Positions 30,511-40,436 of a stretch of DNA of 47,829 bases are shown one piece after another. Made by a program: the position numbers and the translations under genes. This stretch comes from Turneriella parva (GTDB taxonomy: Bacteria; Spirochaetota; Leptospiria; Turneriellales; Turneriellaceae). The first letter of the stretch is position 1, and every line of letters begins with the position of its first letter. The DNA lies in the NCBI GenBank assembly GCA_020719945.1, contig DYPL01000015.1, positions 1 to 47,829 of the forward strand, written 5' to 3'. The notes under the pieces were generated by a model. The model had not been told where the DNA came from, did no database searches, and saw only the letters and a program-made list of their open reading frames with translations.

Positions 30511-31746
30511 ATGACCACTATCCTGTATGACCTGCTCATGCATACTCTGGTGAGCCTGTTGCGCGTTGCGTCGTTATTCTCTCCCCGCCTTGCCTATGCC
30601 TTCCAAAGCCGCCAAACAACCTGGCCATCCATTCCCGCCGGGCGCACCGTGTATTGGTTCCATGCAGCCTCCGTGGGAGAATACGACACGCTTCGCCCGC
30701 TTGCTTCCCGCCTTCTAACAGAAAAGCCGGACGCATTCCTGCTGTTTACCGTTTTTTCTGATTCTGCCATGAAGCAGCGTTCTTTGGATTCATTGCCCCA
30801 TCTGTTGATTCCCCTTCCATTTGATACTCGCAAAAACGCCATTCGCTTTATGCAACATTTTAAGCCCAGAGCGGTATTCTACTCGCGCTACGACGTATGG
30901 CCCGCCTTTGCCCGCGAAGCCAATGCACGGAAAATTCCGCAATTTTTGATTTCTGCGATTCTTCCGGAAAATTCCAAACGCCTCAAAGGAATTTCTGGTC
31001 TGCTCCTTAAACAGGCATATGCAGGCCTCAAAAAAATTTACGCTCTGAATGAGGCAACGGCTGAGCGGTTTCGCGCTGCAGGATTGAGGAATACAGAATC
31101 TGCTGGTGACGCGCGGGCAGATGAAATCCGTTCTAAAATGGAGACTCTGTTACAGCGTCCGGAAACCTCCGAAAAAGCTAACCGCATTTTTTCCCTTTTA
31201 GAGAAAAGCCGCATTACGATTGTAGCTGGTTCCACCTATGAGACCTGCGAACCCATGATTCTCGATGCCATCGCAAACCAGCCGGATTTTTCTGCCATCC
31301 TTGTGCCGCATCACATAGACCAAAAACATTTGTCCTGGCTAAAAAGCTATCTGGAAGAAAAAAAAATTCCCCATGCGTTCTACTCTGACCCATCCGCCAA
31401 ATCAGAAAGAATTGTCATAGCAGATACTCTGGGGGTTCTGCCCGCTTTATACCAAACCGGAGATATCGCCTTTGTTGGCGGCGGCTTTGAGGGGAAAATA
31501 CACAATGTGCTGGAGCCGGCCCTTCATGGGCTTCCCGTATTAAGCGGCCCGGCCTTTCGCAATTCTGACGAAGCCATCCAAATGCATGAACAGGGATTTT
31601 TATTTTCTTTGGAATACGCCTGGCCTGAAACATTTGCGAAAGCGGTTATAGAGCATTCTGGCAAAACAAAAGAAATCGCGAAATTCTTTGAGACCGTAAC
31701 GGGGGCGACGGAAAAAATCTATAACGATCTGCGGCTCTATCTGTAA
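30511..31746 (+). CDS. waaA: 3-deoxy-D-manno-octulosonic acid transferase
   Basis: WaaA (KdtA) transfers Kdo from CMP-Kdo onto the lipid A precursor at the inner membrane. The 411-aa protein has a hydrophobic N-terminal anchor (about 6-25), then [11 protein letters not shown] (51-60) with the catalytic Glu57. PENSKRLKG follows in the place of the usual SxRSxxR region. The C-terminal GT-B half has [35 protein letters not shown] and [22 protein letters not shown]. Together with kdsB and lpxD it completes a convincing LPS signal for the organism. It starts 5 bp after acyP and overlaps the convergent patatin gene by 10 bp. Confidence 0.94.
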
Positions 31747-32648
31747 AACAAACGACTCAAAAAAGCCAAGCTTCCCTGACTGAATTTTTTCCTGATCTGG
31801 GGCATGGCCTGCATGGCACTCTGGTAACCTTCGCGAATAATTTTTTCTGCATCCTGGTAGTCTGCCCAGTGAACGGACCGCCGAATCGGGCGCAATACAA
31901 ACCTGGCCATTTTCATCTGCGCTGCGTTGCGGTGGCGGGAAGAAATTTCTTCAGAGCGCAGCATGACATCTAACGCGTTTTGCATTTTCTCGTTCTGTAA
32001 TCCGGGCGGATTGACATCGACAGCGAGAATGGGTCCAAATCCGGCTTCTTTAGCAGACTCTATTCCGTTCACGTCGAGAACACCGCCGTCGGTATACCAC
32101 ACTCCAGCAATTTTGCGTGGAGGAAAAAGGATGGGCATGGACGCAGAGGCAAGCACCGCATCCCGCAGGCTGTCCTGGTTACGAAACAATTTTCGATCTC
32201 CCGTTTTGAGATTCACGGCTACGCACGAAAAAGGAATGGCCGTACTTCCAAGCCGAATGTCAGGAAGAACCTGAAACAGGACTGGTTCAATTTCCCGGCG
32301 CGATATAAGCCCCTTGGACAAAAAGAGACGCCCTGCAATTCCAGTGCGCGTCGAAATATTTTCTACAACAGAAAGAAACCCTCCTGGATCCTGTTCCACT
32401 TTTTTTTTCCAGTTTCCCATCAGGGAACTTTTAAATTCGGAAGAATATATCATGGTAAGAATTTTCTCTTTTGCAAATGCGACATTGGGTTCTACCGCAT
32501 AAACCGCACCCACGATGGCGCCCATGGATACCCCCGTAATAGACTCTACTTGAATCTGGTTTTCTTCGAGAGCCTGGAGAACGCCGAGATGCGCAAGCCC
32601 CCGGGCTGCTCCACCGCCAAGATTAAGATGGAGAAATACTTTGTTCAT
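31737..32648 (-). CDS. Patatin-like phospholipase
   Basis: A 303-aa serine lipase of the RssA/patatin type. The oxyanion loop [12 protein letters not shown] is at 11-22, the nucleophile Ser41 sits in GVSMG and the dyad Asp187 in YTDGGVLDV. All catalytic parts are present. There is no signal peptide, membrane helix or POTRA domain, so it is probably cytoplasmic like RssA/YchK. The substrate (lysophospholipid or acyl ester) is inferred. It converges on waaA with a 10-bp overlap and is divergent from the ABC operon. No good ribosome-binding site is seen. Confidence 0.9.
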
Positions 32649-32673: not shown

Positions 32674-32715
32674 CGTGTAACGAGCCACAGGCCCAAAGTC
32701 ACTCCGTGGATTTTG
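32674..32715. repeat. Degenerate copy of the dispersed hairpin repeat (copy 4)
   Basis: The flank GAGCCACAGGC matches the GCAAGCCGCAGGC core with several differences, followed by AAAGTC, ACTCCGTG and GATTTT, a weakened stem. It lies between divergent genes, where a terminator is not needed, so it looks like a decayed element. Confidence 0.5.
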
Positions 32716-32810: not shown

Positions 32811-33734
32811 ATGATTCAGGTAAAGAACCTCACAAAACAGTTCGGTAATTTTACGGCTGTCAACAATATCAGTTTTGAAATTAAAGCCGGCGAGGTGGCC
32901 GGGCTACTCGGTCCCAACGGAGCCGGAAAAACAACCACGATGAGAATGCTGACCGGATTTTACAATCCTACTGGCGGCAGCATTCAGATCGATACTCTTT
33001 CCATGCCGGCAAACAGGCAGGCTATCCAAAAGAAAATTGGATATCTCCCCGAATCTGCCAGCTCGTATGCCGACATGACGGTATGGGATTTTCTGCAGTT
33101 TGCCGCAGACGCACGAGGCCTTACTTCTGAAGACAAAGCTAAAGGTCTTGAAAAATCGATTGCGGCTACCGGAATTTCTGAGTATCTCTACCACCCTATC
33201 CATAAACTTTCCAAGGGTTACAAACAGAGGGTAGGGCTTGCCTCTGCGCTCGTTCACGATCCGTCTATTCTAATTCTTGATGAGCCTACTTCGGGCCTTG
33301 ACCCAAACCAGATTGCCGAAATTCAAAATCTGATTCGCGAGCTTTCCAAGGATAAAACCATTATATTGAGCTCTCACATTCTAAGCGAAGTAGAAGCCGT
33401 AGCAGACCGCGTTCTGATTATTGCACGCGGAGAACTTGCGTACGATAAATCGATTGCGGATCTTAAAAACCAGAGCCAGACAACAACTCTCGCTGCATTC
33501 CGCAATGCACCCGAAAACCTCCCGGATATTCTCCGCGAATCTCTTAGTCTTGCAGAAAGGCCACAGTCCCAGATGCGCGATGGAGAAACCCTGTTCCGCA
33601 TTGCCGGCGATAAAGAGACTTCGCACCGAATTTTCAGGGCAGCAGCGGAAAGAAATCTGGAGCTCACTGAAGTCTACCGCGAAACAGAATCTTTGGAAGC
33701 TCTGTTCCGCTCTATAACCGGAGGAAACAAATGA
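32811..33734 (+). CDS. ABC transporter ATPase (GldA-like ABC-2 exporter)
   Basis: The 307-aa ATPase powers the membrane subunit encoded next. Walker A GPNGAGKTT, the Q-loop region KKIGYLPES, signature LSKGYKQRVGLA, Walker B ILILDEPTSGLD and the H-loop SSHIL are all intact. A C-terminal extension (about 220-307) is common in ABC-2 ATPases of the Gld/Nos group. It is not preceded by a clear ribosome-binding site; TTGACA lies 38 nt upstream. Its stop overlaps the permease start (ATGA). GldA is a family likeness, not evidence for gliding. Confidence 0.92.
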   Translation: MIQVKNLTKQFGNFTAVNNISFEIKAGEVAGLLGPNGAGKTTTMRMLTGFYNPTGGSIQIDTLSMPANRQAIQKKIGYLPESASSYADMTVWDFLQFAADARGLTSEDKAKGLEKSIAATGISEYLYHPIHKLSKGYKQRVGLASALVHDPSILILDEPTSGLDPNQIAEIQNLIRELSKDKTIILSSHILSEVEAVADRVLIIARGELAYDKSIADLKNQSQTTTLAAFRNAPENLPDILRESLSLAERPQSQMRDGETLFRIAGDKETSHRIFRAAAERNLELTEVYRETESLEALFRSITGGNK

Positions 33735-34450
33735 ACTGGAATACCATCAACGTCATTTACAAAAGGGAAATGGGGCATTATTTTAATACTCCCATTGGAT
33801 ATATATTCCTGGCCATTTTTATCTTGTTTGCCGGGTTTATGCTTTTTTTTACGCCTCCCCGCTTCTGGGATTCCGGCAATTCCATGCGCAGCTTTTTTGA
33901 TCTGCTTCCCATCCTTTACATGTTCTTTATTCCCGCCATCACGATGCGGCTCTGGGCAGAGGAAAAAAAATCGGGCACGATTGAATTTTTCTTTACCCTT
34001 CCCTTTACCGAGACAGAAGCCATTCTTGGAAAATTTTTGTCCGCTCTAACGTTTCTCGCCATTGCTCTTTCTACAACGCTGCCCATCGCGGTGACAACCA
34101 TTCTGACGGGCAGCCCGGATTTGGCGCAGATTCTGGGAGGCTACCTGGGTGGTCTGCTGTCTGGGGCAGCCTATATTTCGCTGGGGCTGTATTTGTCGTG
34201 GCTGGTAAACGACCAGATCAACGCTTTTCTCCTGGCCTTTTTGGCCAGCTTTTTCTTCTTTATGCTCGGCTACCAGCCGCTTCTACAGTTTTTTGGGCCA
34301 TGGAAAGATTTTCTTGCTTTTTTTTCCATCTCATGGCACGTTCAGTCGCTGTACCGGGGTCTTATAGACACGCGCGATATTCTGTACTTTATTTTGTTCC
34401 CACTTTTGTTTTTATATCTCAACCGGGAAAGCATTTGGAGATCCCGCTGA
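33731..34450 (+). CDS. ABC-2 type permease (GldF-like)
   Basis: This 239-aa integral membrane protein has about six hydrophobic segments, starting after MNWNTINVIYKREMGHYFNTPIGY, a typical ABC-2/GldF N-terminus. RLWAEEKKSGTIEFFFTLPFTETEAILGKFL is the coupling-helix region characteristic of ABC-2 permeases. It partners with the preceding ATPase by a 4-bp ATGA overlap. Substrate unknown; in Gld-like systems GldF works with GldG. Confidence 0.9.
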   Translation: MNWNTINVIYKREMGHYFNTPIGYIFLAIFILFAGFMLFFTPPRFWDSGNSMRSFFDLLPILYMFFIPAITMRLWAEEKKSGTIEFFFTLPFTETEAILGKFLSALTFLAIALSTTLPIAVTTILTGSPDLAQILGGYLGGLLSGAAYISLGLYLSWLVNDQINAFLLAFLASFFFFMLGYQPLLQFFGPWKDFLAFFSISWHVQSLYRGLIDTRDILYFILFPLLFLYLNRESIWRSR

Positions 34451-34465
34451 TTACGGAGTATAGCC

Positions 34466-36067
34466 ATGGATAAGTTCATTAAATCAATCCAACAGTTTTT
34501 GTCATCCCGCAACGCGACGGTCGCCCTCGTCATTCTCCTGTTTCTCTCTGTGAGTTACCTGAGTTATGGCCTATACCTTCGCATGGATCTTTCCAGCCAG
34601 GGGACTCTGCGGCTTACCAAGACGACAAGGCAGATCTTGAACAAGCTGGAAGAGCCGCTCACCATAGAAGCCTATTTTTCAGAAGATATGCCAGAGGCGG
34701 CTTTGCAGACGGTTAAGTTCATGAAAGACTTCGTTTCTGAATATGCCGGCATCTCTTCCAAAGTCCGCCTGCGCGTATTGAACCCCGACAAAGACGAAGA
34801 TGCCAAAATGCGCGCCGACTCGCTTGGAATTCGTCCTCTCCAGATTGGTGCCGTCGACAAAAAAAAGCAGGAAGTGGCTTCCATCTATTTTTCTCTGGCA
34901 CTTCACTACGGAGGCAAAACCGAAATTGTGCCTTCTCTGCTCGAATCCCCTTCTCCTGAGTACGACATTACAGCACGCGTAATTAAACTGAGCCAACCGG
35001 AACGCAACCGCGTTGGAATTCTCGTCAATCCAGGCATGGTCCGCCCGGATTCCAATGCCAGCAGCTTTGAAAAAGTGGAGTATCTTCGCGACACCATAGA
35101 GACTCTGTATGGAGCCATGGAACAGATTGATACTACGGTTTCGGAAATCCCGCCAGAAGTGAAGACGATTCTACTGGTAAGACCCGGTGTACTCACGGAA
35201 ATAGATCGATATAAGCTAGACCAGTTTTTGATGCGCGGCGGCAGACTGATTGTGGCAGCCTCTGGCATGGCCATTGATTTTCAGTCCGGCATTGCATCAG
35301 AATCAACGAGCGACATAGTATCGTTTTTAGAGCCGTATGGAATTGTCCTAGGAAAAGATATAATCTATGAGTCCAACAGCAATTTTCTCCCGTACGAACA
35401 GAGAGTGAACGCCTTCCAGTCGATTTCCCTTCCGTATCCTGTCTGGAATATTTCTACGTCACTTAACCAGAAACTGGAAATCACCAAAGGACTCAAAGCA
35501 CTCGTCCTCCCGTATGCTTCTACGATTACACTCGCTGGAAAACAGGAAGGCACGACGGCAGAAATTCTGGCATCTTCTTCTTCGGGTGCATGGGCCCAAA
35601 AAAGTTTTGCGATGATCGATCCCCGCCGCATGCCAACGCAACCACCAGAGGGCACAACCAAACAGATTCACAACCAGTCGGTTTTATTAAGTGGCAAATT
35701 CAAGAGTGCCTTTGCGGCTTCGCCAGATCAGAATTCTGCCTATCCGCATTTACCAGAAGGCGAGGGAAAGCTTCTCGTAACAGGTACCCCGTATGCATTC
35801 ACTGACATTGGGGTGCAATTGAGTGACGGACTCAACCTCAATTTTGTTCTCTCTGCCGTTGATTCTTTTAACGGAATGGAGGAACTGCTCGCACTGCGCA
35901 AAAAAAGTCCGCCCGCTCCTAAACGATTGAACCTTAGCCAGGCAACCCAGGATGCCATTACTTTTTTCAATTTTTTAATTCCACTTGGCTTACTTGCGGG
36001 ATTTGGAATCTATCACTTTTCGCAGCGCAGACAAAGAATGAACCAGGGAGAAAACCATGAAAACTAA
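34466..36067 (+). CDS. GldG-like ABC auxiliary protein
   Basis: The 533-aa protein has an N-terminal membrane helix (about 17-38) and a C-terminal one (about 500-520), with a large periplasmic domain between. The segment RMDLSSQGTLRLTKTTRQILNKLEEPLTIEAYFSEDMPE is the hallmark of the GldG / ABC_transp_aux (PF09822) group, and VPSLLESPSPEYDITARVIKL follows it as usual. It works beside ABC-2 permeases in an incompletely understood export machine. SD ACGGAG lies before the ATG, 15 bp after the permease. It overlaps the DUF4340 gene by 11 bp. Confidence 0.88.
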   Translation: MDKFIKSIQQFLSSRNATVALVILLFLSVSYLSYGLYLRMDLSSQGTLRLTKTTRQILNKLEEPLTIEAYFSEDMPEAALQTVKFMKDFVSEYAGISSKVRLRVLNPDKDEDAKMRADSLGIRPLQIGAVDKKKQEVASIYFSLALHYGGKTEIVPSLLESPSPEYDITARVIKLSQPERNRVGILVNPGMVRPDSNASSFEKVEYLRDTIETLYGAMEQIDTTVSEIPPEVKTILLVRPGVLTEIDRYKLDQFLMRGGRLIVAASGMAIDFQSGIASESTSDIVSFLEPYGIVLGKDIIYESNSNFLPYEQRVNAFQSISLPYPVWNISTSLNQKLEITKGLKALVLPYASTITLAGKQEGTTAEILASSSSGAWAQKSFAMIDPRRMPTQPPEGTTKQIHNQSVLLSGKFKSAFAASPDQNSAYPHLPEGEGKLLVTGTPYAFTDIGVQLSDGLNLNFVLSAVDSFNGMEELLALRKKSPPAPKRLNLSQATQDAITFFNFLIPLGLLAGFGIYHFSQRRQRMNQGENHEN

Positions 36068-36950
36068 TTTCCAACTACTTCTCGCCGCTCTTGGAATTTT
36101 TCTGTTAGCTCTGATCGTAAATGATCCATTTGGATGGCGCCGACACAGTTACAGCGATTCCAAACCGCTACTCAATATTTCTGCCGATACCGTGAAGGAA
36201 ATCACCATAGCGGACGGAGCAAACTCCTTTACCATTGCACGGGATGCCAACGGATCGTGGGAGCAAATTACGCAGGGACAAAACCGCTACCGGGCCGATG
36301 CCGAGGCTGTCCAAAAAGCAGTATTACAACTTCTCGAAATACGCCGTTACACCCGCGTAGGTTCTGCGTCCGCCTTTGACCAGAAACTGGGCATCTCTGA
36401 ACAGGGACTGCGCGTGGCTCTCAAGGCAGATAAACACTACACCATTCTAATTGGCAATACGGCAGAAAACGGCGTAGAGACTATGGTACGGCTTGCTGAC
36501 GAAAAAAGCATTTATAGTGCACGCGACAACCTTGCCATGACTTTTCAAAAAGGGGCTGATTTTTTCCGGTCGAAATCGTTTCTTCTCGCTGCCAAAGAAA
36601 ATATTCGGGCCATTCGCTATTCTGGAAAAAAAAATCTCCAACTGGTACTCGAAGGGTCTGACTGGAAAAACGGAAGCCGAATTGTAAAACCCGAAGAAAT
36701 GACAAAACTTCTCGATGCCCTCCTCACTCTGAAAGCGGAATATTTTGAGGCTATACCGCAACTTCCGCTCAACGCGGAAATTATTCTGGAACTGCAGTCG
36801 GGGCCGGCCAAAAGAATTGAAATACGGGGACCAGATGCGAACAATAAACTGTACGCTGTATCAACGGATCTTCCCGAAGGAGGTACAATAGCTCCATACC
36901 GCCTGGATCAAATTGTACCGACAGATGAAAACTTATATAATGAAAAATAA
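36057..36950 (+). CDS. DUF4340 domain protein
   Basis: The 297-aa product has one N-terminal membrane helix (about 5-22) and a periplasmic region containing DUF4340: VKEITIADGANSFTIARDANGSWEQ, YRADAEAVQKAVLQLLEIRR, then LGISEQGLRVALKADKHYTILIGNTAENGVETMVRLADEKSIY. DUF4340 proteins commonly accompany GldG-type ABC systems, as here. GGGAG lies six bases before the ATG, and the gene overlaps GldG by 11 bp. A part in substrate handling is inferred only from context. Confidence 0.85.
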   Translation: MKTNFQLLLAALGIFLLALIVNDPFGWRRHSYSDSKPLLNISADTVKEITIADGANSFTIARDANGSWEQITQGQNRYRADAEAVQKAVLQLLEIRRYTRVGSASAFDQKLGISEQGLRVALKADKHYTILIGNTAENGVETMVRLADEKSIYSARDNLAMTFQKGADFFRSKSFLLAAKENIRAIRYSGKKNLQLVLEGSDWKNGSRIVKPEEMTKLLDALLTLKAEYFEAIPQLPLNAEIILELQSGPAKRIEIRGPDANNKLYAVSTDLPEGGTIAPYRLDQIVPTDENLYNEK

Positions 36951-37659
36951 ACTCTATACTCTTGCGGGAATTCTGATTCTGCTGTATTCCTGCAGCGATG
37001 GTTCCCGTCTGGCACGCGAGGGAAGAGAACACCAGCAGAAAGCACACAATGTAGCCGCCTTGAACCTGTACGAAAAAAGCCTGGAACAAAATCCATCCAA
37101 TCCCATTGCTCTTCTAGGTAAGGGATCTATTCTCGTTCGAGAAAATGTAACGAGAGTCATGGGAATTTCGATGATAGAAAAGGCTTTGCCCAAAATCAAA
37201 GATCCCGCTATGAAGGCAGAGGGATATGCAATTTTGCTGAACGATTCTATTTCCAGAGGTGACAGTCGCAAAGCAGATAAACTCTCTCAAACCATTCAAC
37301 AGCAGAAGCTATATTCCCCGAAAATATTTTCACTGCTCGCAAGAAGTTCCAAGAACTCCGGCACTGTATACGAAACGGCCTTGCAGAACTACCCGGACTC
37401 GAGAGAACTCCGACTGGAGTACGCTTCGTGGCTGGCGTCCCGCAACAATTACACAGAAGCACTGCAACAGTTGCGGAGCGCACCGCTGGCAGGACAAAGA
37501 GATGCTGCACTGCTGTCTGCGCGGATCTATTATCTTCAGGGGAATAGAGAAAAAGCGATCGAAGTTTATCCTAAAGACGATACGCATTCCCTCGAAATTC
37601 TGAAGTTGATTAATCAGGGGAAATGGAACGTTGCCATTGAATGGATCCAGAGCGAATAG
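36940..37659 (+). CDS. TPR-like lipoprotein
   Basis: From ATG 36940 (239 aa) the signal peptide ends in the lipobox LYSC, lipidated at Cys18. Helical repeats follow: EHQQKAHNVAALNLYEKSLEQNPSNPIALLGKGSIL, LRLEYASWLASRNNYTEALQQLRSA, ARIYYLQGNREKAIEVYP, consistent with TPR/Sel1-type solenoids. Two earlier in-frame ATGs (36913 and 36925) lie inside the DUF4340 gene; the third gives the best signal peptide. It is the fifth gene of the ABC operon, likely periplasmic or outer-membrane anchored. Confidence 0.8.
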   Translation: MKNKLYTLAGILILLYSCSDGSRLAREGREHQQKAHNVAALNLYEKSLEQNPSNPIALLGKGSILVRENVTRVMGISMIEKALPKIKDPAMKAEGYAILLNDSISRGDSRKADKLSQTIQQQKLYSPKIFSLLARSSKNSGTVYETALQNYPDSRELRLEYASWLASRNNYTEALQQLRSAPLAGQRDAALLSARIYYLQGNREKAIEVYPKDDTHSLEILKLINQGKWNVAIEWIQSE

Positions 37660-38536
37660 CCCAAGGAATCCCGGCGATTTCTGGTTTGTTTTTTTTGCAC
37701 CTGTAACATTTCTATTTGTATTTTTATTTTTTTTATTACTGCTGCCGGAAATTTCGTGGCAATCCTTTTCGCGCAAGACCATGGCAGAAGACCCCCGCGA
37801 AATACGCGTACTGCTCGAAAACGCGGAAAAACAAAAACAGAAGGAACAGAAAGAGAAAGTATTTTTATCGGACTCGGATAACCAAGCGCAGGGAAATGTC
37901 ACACGAGAACAGGGCTTTTCAGCCGTAACAAAAGATTATGTCTTTGACTATAAGACGAGTGGACGTACCGGAAAAGACTCACTTAAAAATGGCAGCAACT
38001 ATAGAACGTATGTTTCGAGCACCGGAAAATACACGGTTACACTGCACCCTGATTCTGGAAATCCAACGGTAAAAAGCAGTGAAGTGAAAATTACGCGACG
38101 CCTTCCCTCATACTATAATTTTAAAGATCGCTTTGCCCTGTCATGGAATAAAAACGGAACGCCAAGAATCCCAACGAAGAATATGGAGCACTACAGCTAT
38201 TTTCGAAAAATGCTGAGCAAAATCCAAGACCACTGGTCGCCACCGGGAGGCAATCCTCTCATGATGGACGCCAATGCATTTTATGGGACAACACCCACTC
38301 CGGGAATGGTTCGCTACCAGGCTTTTCCCACACAGGATATTCGCGTCGTCTTTATGCTCGATGCAGAAGGAAACGTCATTGATCTAAGGCTCCACGAATC
38401 CAAAGGTTTTTCTGCTCTCGATGCTTCCTGCCTTGAATCCATAGAATCGTCGCGCAACTTTGGCGCAGTGCCGACCGAACTTCTCGACAACGGCACGCTC
38501 ATTGTCCCATTAATTTTTAGGATTATTCTTAAGTAA
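37631..38536 (+). CDS. TonB/TolA-like energy-transducer protein
   Basis: The 301-aa product starts at a TTG, with GGGGA upstream, and overlaps the lipoprotein gene by 29 bp. No ATG is available before the membrane helix at about 17-40. A Lys/Glu/Gln-rich helix (60-85) and a polar linker follow. The C-terminal domain (about 200-301) reads FRKMLSKIQDHWSPPG, then VVFMLDAEGNVIDLRLHESKGFSALDASCLESIESSRNFGAVP, the TonB_C/TolA C-terminal pattern. It is therefore a periplasm-spanning link to the outer membrane. No ExbB/ExbD genes are nearby. It closes the ABC operon and ends before the hairpin at 38564. Confidence 0.8.
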   Translation: MPLNGSRANSPRNPGDFWFVFFAPVTFLFVFLFFLLLLPEISWQSFSRKTMAEDPREIRVLLENAEKQKQKEQKEKVFLSDSDNQAQGNVTREQGFSAVTKDYVFDYKTSGRTGKDSLKNGSNYRTYVSSTGKYTVTLHPDSGNPTVKSSEVKITRRLPSYYNFKDRFALSWNKNGTPRIPTKNMEHYSYFRKMLSKIQDHWSPPGGNPLMMDANAFYGTTPTPGMVRYQAFPTQDIRVVFMLDAEGNVIDLRLHESKGFSALDASCLESIESSRNFGAVPTELLDNGTLIVPLIFRIILK

Positions 38537-38543
38537 CCTCTGA

Positions 38544-38587
38544 ATGCGAAGCAAGCCGCAGGCAAAAAGTCCCTCTGTGGACTTTTT
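38544..38587. terminator. Dispersed hairpin repeat, copy 2: bidirectional terminator
   Basis: The flank (core GCAAGCCGCAGGC) leads to AAAAAGTCC at 38564-38572, loop CTCTGT and GGACTTTTT at 38579-38587. It sits between the convergent ends of the TonB-like gene (38536) and ilvD (38598). The hairpin is nearly the reverse complement of copy 1's hairpin, while the flank keeps the same orientation. Confidence 0.8.
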
Positions 38588-38597
38588 CAAACCTTAT

Positions 38598-40436
38598 TTA
38601 AATTTCGAGAATGGCTCCACGGGCAGCGTTCGTTACCAGCTTGCGGTAGCGGGACAAATAACCCCGACCCATATCGCGCAGCACGGGTTTCCAGTTTTTT
38701 CTGCGCTCGGTCATCTCCTGCTCGCTTACCTTTAGCTCAAGAATATTTTTATGCATATCGATAAAAATTCTGTCGCCATCCTTTACCAGTGCAATGGGCC
38801 CTCCCTCTGCTGCTTCGGGAGAAACATGGCCAATACTTGCTCCACGCGTTCCACCCGAAAAACGACCATCGGTAATGAGAGCTACTTTATCTCCAAGCCC
38901 CTTGCCCATAATGAAAGAGGTGGGAGCAAGCATTTCCTGCATGCCGGGCCCACCACGGGGACCTTCGTAACGAATTACGACGACATGCCCTGCACGCACC
39001 TTGCCTCCGAGAATGCCCTCAACTGCTTCTTCTTGGGATTCAAATACTATGGCATCTCCCTCAAAAACGAACATTTCGGGAACGACTCCGGCTGATTTGA
39101 CAACGGCCCCTTCGGGAGCCAGATTGCCATACAAAACATTCAATCCGCCGGTCTTACTGTATGCGGTATCTACGGTGCGAATGCAATCATAGGGATCAAA
39201 TCCAAGATACTCTTTTGTTCTTTGCGCCGGATCAATCTTGTTTTCCGAAGACAATTCTTTTGCACCCAGTTTGTGAGTTGGCGCAGCAAGCGATAGTTCC
39301 AATTTTTCAGCTGTGGCTTTGCCACCGCGAAGATCGTAGTCATCGATATTCTCTCCGAGAGTTTTTCCCGTTATCGTGAGAGACTTTTCATGCAGAAGAC
39401 CAGGAATGCCACGGCGTACTTCTCCAAGAATCGTGTGGATTCCACCAGACAGATGAAGATCCTCAATGTGATAGGGGGAAGATGGAGAAACCTTGCTGAT
39501 ATTGGGAGTTTTTCCGTTGAGTGAATTAATACTCGCCATGGTAAAATCAAACACTCCTGCCTCGGCGGCTACTGCGAGAGTATGCAGAAGCGTGTTCGTG
39601 GACCCACCCATGGCCATATCGAGAATCATTGCGTTTTCGAGGGTATGCTTATTCACGATGGAACGCGGTAAAAAGGGGTACGCCTCGCCGCGCTGCCTGT
39701 AGTCCTCCTCTTCCTGCACCATTTCAACGATTCGCTTAGCAGCTTTTTGATACAAAGCAATTCGGTATTTGCTTGTGGCCAGAAGTGTTCCATTTTCTGG
39801 AAAAGAAAGACCTAATGCTTCGGTAAGACAATTCATGGAATTGGCCGTGAACATACCGCTGCAGGATCCGCAGGAAGGACAGGCATAGTCTTCTCTTTCT
39901 TTGAGCTGTGCTTCTGAGATTTTGCCTTCTTTGAATGCCCCCACTCCTTCAAAAACGGATATCAAGTCGACGAGTTCGCCCGATGGTGTAAGGCCAGCCT
40001 CCATTGGGCCTCCCGAAACAAATATAGAAGGGATATTGGCCCGCATAGCTCCCATAAGCATACCCGGAACAATTTTATCACAATTAGGAACAAATATAAC
40101 TCCATCAAAATGGTGAGCTTTTAATACAGTTTCCACAGAGTCTGCAATCACTTCGCGAGAGGCAAGAGAATATTTCATCCCGTCGTGGCCCATGGCAATA
40201 CCATCATCTACCCCGATTGTATTAAAGACAAACGGAACTCCACCGGCTTCGCGAACGAGCTTTTTCAGAAGATCGTTAATTGTTGTTAAATGAAAATGTC
40301 CGGGAATAATGTCAATGTGGCTACTGGCAATAGCAATAAACGGCTTGCCGAAATCTTCGTCACGCACTCCTGTCGCCTTGAGCAGGGAGCGATGGGGAGC
40401 CCTTTCATATCCTTTTTTAATTGTATCTGATCTCAT
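38598..40436 (-). CDS. ilvD: Dihydroxy-acid dehydratase
   Basis: IlvD dehydrates dihydroxy-acids in valine, leucine and isoleucine synthesis through an iron-sulfur cluster. The 612-aa protein has Cys119 in NCDKIVPG, Cys192 in [13 protein letters not shown], the Lys121 expected to be carbamylated, [20 protein letters not shown] and SGGPMEAG. The position where plant-type enzymes carry Cys-Asn reads PGHFHL, as in E. coli, so the oxygen-sensitive class is likely (inferred). Its minus-strand -35 TTGACG is 34 nt upstream. A palindrome there is shared with panE. The ilvCBN genes are absent here. Confidence 0.96.

Follow-up and report, generated by a model that had tools for sequence, protein, structure and literature searches.

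Our results suggest, with confidence and doubt in about equal measure, that the six genes described here, A to F, form an operon of Turneriellales-type spirochaetes and represent an order-specific extension of a Gld/DUF4340 ABC transporter module by a periplasmic adaptor, F, and a TPR lipoprotein, E. The genes lie in a 47,829-nucleotide stretch of Turneriella parva DNA, referred to here as the window. In the mechanism that we propose, A and B would together make up an inner-membrane ABC-2 transporter, which C and D, as membrane-anchored subunits, would extend into the periplasm. ATP hydrolysis by A would drive B together with the periplasmic C and D, and an envelope component, perhaps a lipoprotein or a lipid-linked glycan, would be released or moved from the inner membrane; both the substrate and the direction are what we infer. 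F would span the periplasm as an adaptor, and E would act as a docking scaffold on the far side.

All six genes are on the forward strand, and their description in an earlier note on this DNA as overlapping or abutting was borne out by the open reading frames, each of which overlaps its neighbor or lies no more than 15 nt from it. A (32811-33734, 307 aa), a GldA-like ABC transporter ATPase, overlaps by 4 nt the gene for B (33731-34450, 239 aa), a GldF-like ABC-2 type permease, which is followed after 15 nt by C (34466-36067, 533 aa), a GldG-like auxiliary protein, and this in turn overlaps by 11 nt the DUF4340 protein gene D (36057-36950, 297 aa). The remaining junctions depend on the choice of start codon. 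The TPR lipoprotein gene E, at 36943-37659 (238 aa) or from an ATG at 36928 (243 aa), overlaps D by 8 or 23 nt, and F, which begins at a TTG at 37631 or 37637, ends at 38536 and encodes a membrane-anchored protein of about 300 aa with a TonB/TolA-like C-terminal domain, overlaps E by 29 or 23 nt. The unit is flanked before A by a gene for a patatin-like protein (31737-32648, reverse strand) and after F by the convergent IlvD gene (38598-40436, reverse strand). Just after F, a forward-strand hairpin with a U tract (38565-38587; fold -15.3 kcal/mol, z -1.7) is likely to be a transcription terminator, and it is also one copy of an interspersed palindromic repeat. Matches in our promoter scan were no more frequent than expected by chance; the terminator scan, which was slightly above chance (10 sites with 6.4 expected), found no forward-strand site at the gene junctions. 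The palindromic repeat is REP-like, is built around GTCCCTCYGTGGAC and occurs in the window at 32681-32712, 38555-38587 and 99-115; the first two of these copies stand on either side of the six-gene unit and share one orientation, and 14 exact copies were counted genome-wide against 1 for a reversed control pattern. In a sister genome of the same genus, F and IlvD are separated by a tandem array (L062 15380-15970) whose units are approximately 45 bases long (CCAAAATAGGTGACATAATTCTGGATTTTGTTATCTAC). The array is not present in the window, where the gap between the two genes is 61 nt.

Genes A to D have the composition of a Gld-type ABC and DUF4340 module, that is, an ATPase, an ABC-2 permease, a PF09822 protein and a PF14238 protein encoded side by side. 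A contains a Walker A motif (LLGPNGAGKTT), the signature LSKGYKQR and a Walker B motif (ILILDEPTSGLD), and it matches PF00005 at 3e-33. B matches the ABC2_membrane_2/5 family models (ABC2_membrane_2 at 1.7e-10), and C, in which a large domain is placed between two hydrophobic helices, one near each terminus, matches PF09822 (2.5e-41) and DUF7088 (1.2e-18). D has an N-terminal hydrophobic anchor, scores 62.4 bits against the PF14238 cut-off of 25 and is found at a single locus in the genome. Together with the TPR and TonB_2 matches of E and F, these results agree with all the family assignments made earlier from the sequence, including the view that the first four genes are a recognised module; this GldA/F/G-like and DUF4340 module proved to be class-wide. 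That A, B and C resemble GldA, GldF and GldG could also be read as pointing to an apparatus for gliding motility or type IX secretion, a reading that we consider very improbable. All three proteins fall well below the NCBIfam cut-offs of the equivalog models for GldAFG of gliding Bacteroidota (291.9 bits against 402.6 for A in TIGR03522 GldA, 160.7 against 288.5 for B in TIGR03518 GldF, and 113.5 against 389.85 for C in TIGR03521 GldG), and A to D stand without E and F across the class. A search of the genome for GldM gave no match, but the control genomes likewise gave none. We found no functional study of DUF4340 in the literature; one report on Verrucomicrobium calls a DUF4340 domain essential (PMC12283558). 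In one genome of the sample (G006, L067 15153-18489), a second B-related permease gene, accompanied by genes for 596-aa and 267-aa proteins, adjoins the six-gene unit in divergent orientation.

The conservation of the whole unit was followed in 18 genomes from the order and 48 from the class to which the window belongs. The six-gene order is uninterrupted in 12 of the 18, in two of which A is cut by a contig end, and three further genomes fit as far as their contigs extend (the contigs of G011 and G012 start within the unit, and the unit of G013 is split over two contig ends). Two genomes depart from this arrangement. G015 has A-B-C-D-F with E missing and F directly after D, while in G017, which has no clear E, F lies beside IlvD on a different contig from A to D. 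Since G016 is masked after B, the linkage is kept in 15 of 17 informative genomes, and E and F are joined to the module in a conserved co-directional unit throughout the window's own family and in two of the order's three remaining families. Across genera, F shares no more than 33-46% identity with the F of the window. The genes flanking the unit also vary between genera, so the linkage has outlived rearrangement. Purifying selection acts on all six genes: in the comparison with the nearest genome, where F is 95% identical, dN/dS was 0.06-0.14 in A to F, lowest in F (0.058) and highest in E (0.139). Because of these values and because the order is kept across genera at such divergence of F, the unit is not a product of chance. 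The main rival to our explanation is that of an operon of convenience, in which E and F came to lie behind the Gld module in the order's ancestor, serve a separate envelope process, as F has to wherever it is located after ruvB, and are kept in place by translational coupling and shared dosage. We regard this as possible, though on the improbable side, as the linkage has survived strong divergence and the reshuffling of its flanks in about ten genera and F has stayed directly after D in G015, where E is missing.

Outside the order the picture is different for the module and for its two additional genes. A to D are found in nearly the whole class without E or F beside them; in the ten loci examined from the other two families of the class, the module stands as A to D alone or with a D too diverged to score, and neither E nor F was ever next to it. 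F itself is present in 46 of the 48 genomes of the class. In the 28 sister-family genomes that have both F and the module (C or D), the two are never close: G029 and G033 have them 105 kb and 155 kb apart, and the others have them on different contigs. In 9 of 10 sister-family loci examined F directly follows ruvB, typically overlapping it. The gene that F overlaps there was at one point supposed to encode a TPR lipoprotein; it proved to be RuvB, and the idea of an ancient E-F pair was therefore dropped. At L092-L098, L100 and L101, where the TonB/TolA-like gene overlaps or abuts the 3′ end of ruvB, a gene for an HtrA-like protease is often found upstream. Because every sister family tested, and G017 as well, has F at a different locus, F needs no adjacent module. 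From its distribution, F is evidently an old, separately conserved protein that became a neighbor of the module in one order. Several of these observations are what an operon of convenience would produce: the motifs of F are conserved whatever its neighbors are, the overlap with ruvB shows that it is often co-transcribed with unrelated genes, and each part can occur without the other, as in the small genome G046, in which C and D are present and F was not found, and in G039, in which F is present and neither C nor D was found. The proposal of the earlier note that the module has been extended by E and F thus stands as a conserved unit of the order and does not stand as a fixed six-part machine, as the sister families have no clear E orthologue and a distant F. 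The same note had named unlinking of the last two genes in relatives as the observation that would speak against it; they are unlinked outside the order, in the 28 genomes, so the linkage fails at the level of the class, and inside the order they mostly remain linked.

E matches TPR family models and has a signal peptide and lipobox cysteine of the kind expected of an outer-membrane lipoprotein, the cysteine (in LLYSC) following a hydrophobic stretch and being invariant in 15 of 15 orthologues in an alignment inspected by eye. E probably sits in the outer membrane. Its AlphaFold2 model is an all-helical TPR solenoid (mean pLDDT 89), and PilF is among the nearest solved TPR folds. Clear orthologues (E-value at or below 2e-76) are present in exactly 15 genomes, all of the six-gene type, and E looks like an addition specific to the order. 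That it might be a class-wide protein was considered and rejected, as only generic TPR matches were found outside the order (best 1.9e-15).

F is borderline as a TonB protein by family model, with 22.2 bits for TonB_2 against a cut-off of 22 and scores for TonB_C and TIGR01352 just under their cut-offs, and the assignment gains support from the structure prediction and from a search of solved structures with a sequence profile. In the prediction, a single N-terminal helix is followed by a long disordered region and then by a confident C-terminal domain whose modelled fold matches the TonB C-terminal domain and TolA domain III (probability 0.97-1.0, E-value 0.006-0.02), and the sequence profile finds TonB 5lw8 at 2.3e-6. 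Two further parts of the protein are conserved, namely a motif (LLEN...FLSDxD...GxLTxEKGFES) that lies a short way beyond the helix, and a segment before the fold (RIPxYYxFRxxFALSW...HYSYFRxMxxKIQxxWxPPGG). We found no described function for F.

Alternatively, F could be the force transducer of distant ExbBD/TolQR motors and E its TPR lipoprotein partner, in the manner of CpoB and TolA, with the ABC module a mere neighbor. This is unlikely in our estimation, although several points are in its favor. F has the three-part layout of TolA and TonB as well as their C-terminal fold, and CpoB is a TPR protein that is thought to be a former outer-membrane lipoprotein (PMC12204202). The tol-pal loci of other phyla often adjoin ruvABC (PMC12204202), as F does ruvB in the sister families. 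The absence of ExbBD noted earlier is true of the window, where neither ExbB/ExbD nor TolQ/TolR is found beside F, and does not hold genome-wide: ExbD occurs at three loci (contigs C27, C107 and C16), that on C27 being an ExbB-ExbD-TonB operon, and the genome contains four other TonB_C matches besides F. TonB and TolA bind their motors through the SHLS motif, Ser-3X-His-6X-Leu-3X-Ser (PMC12905483), and the motif is absent from the membrane helix in 25 of 25 F proteins tested, its Ser-3X-His half being present in only one, the outlier F of G053 (L080). This argues against a motor-driven F, and only weakly, because the helix of the C27 TonB beside ExbBD is also without the histidine. No TolB_N match was found in the genome of the window, and TIGR02800 was above its cut-off in none of 61 genomes; membership of a Tol-Pal system was rejected on the ground that TolB was not found. 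Elsewhere in the genome of the window, on contig C37 (L111 5659-7187), a TonB-like protein with Ser-3X-His-6X-Leu is encoded directly upstream of an ABC ATPase that is MlaF-like by eye, which makes a second pair of neighboring TonB-fold and ABC genes.

Work on Flavobacterium offers a parallel for the extended module that we propose. There, the outer-membrane lipoproteins GldJ and GldK depend on GldA for their stability, and GldA mutations reduce their levels, while GldF and GldG are required for the membrane localization of GldA (PMC9127263). These findings would fit transporters of this type having a part in the assembly of envelope lipoproteins. The mechanism that we propose draws on this analogy and on the anatomy of the unit. 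The six proteins may form one complex and have a joint function, and the role in cargo transport or surface assembly suggested earlier for the whole set is possible. A stronger form of this idea would be a single trans-envelope machine whose TonB/TolA-fold protein takes its drive from an ATP-dependent ABC motor, not from the proton-driven ExbBD/TolQR, and which links the inner membrane to a TPR lipoprotein of the outer membrane. We hold this to be quite unlikely. Counting against a joint machine are the location of F elsewhere in the sister families and G017, the module without F in G046, and the absence of E from G015 and G017.

No substrate has been assigned to the widespread GldAFG-like/DUF4340 ABC module, and an order in which E and F are stably linked to the module provides a genetic handle on its role. 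F deserves notice as well: nearly all the genomes sampled from the class encode this TonB/TolA-like protein, which lacks the usual motor motif.

Comparison with known systems places the locus as follows. The four-gene Gld/DUF4340 module in the rest of the class (L082-L091) consists of orthologous A to D in the same order as here; in contrast to the unit in the window, it stops after D, has no E and is far from F. GldA-GldF-GldG of Flavobacterium, which belong to the PF09822/TIGR03521 group, likewise comprise an ATPase, an ABC-2 permease and a GldG-like auxiliary protein in the same order, with gldA located apart from gldF-gldG by locus tags (PMC9127263), and the GldA signature LSKGYRQR corresponds to LSKGYKQR in A. 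The unit described here differs in its sub-equivalog scores and in having a DUF4340 gene after C, followed by E and F. E resembles the CpoB- and PilF-type TPR proteins and lipoproteins in its short TPR solenoid and lipobox-type cysteine; the similarity is that of TPR proteins in general and assigns E by sequence to neither. TonB and TolA share with F an N-terminal membrane helix, a disordered linker and a C-terminal domain of TonB/TolA fold. F differs from them in its borderline family scores, in lacking the SHLS motif and adjacent ExbBD/TolQR genes, and in having two additional conserved elements of its own, the segment ahead of the fold and the motif after the helix.
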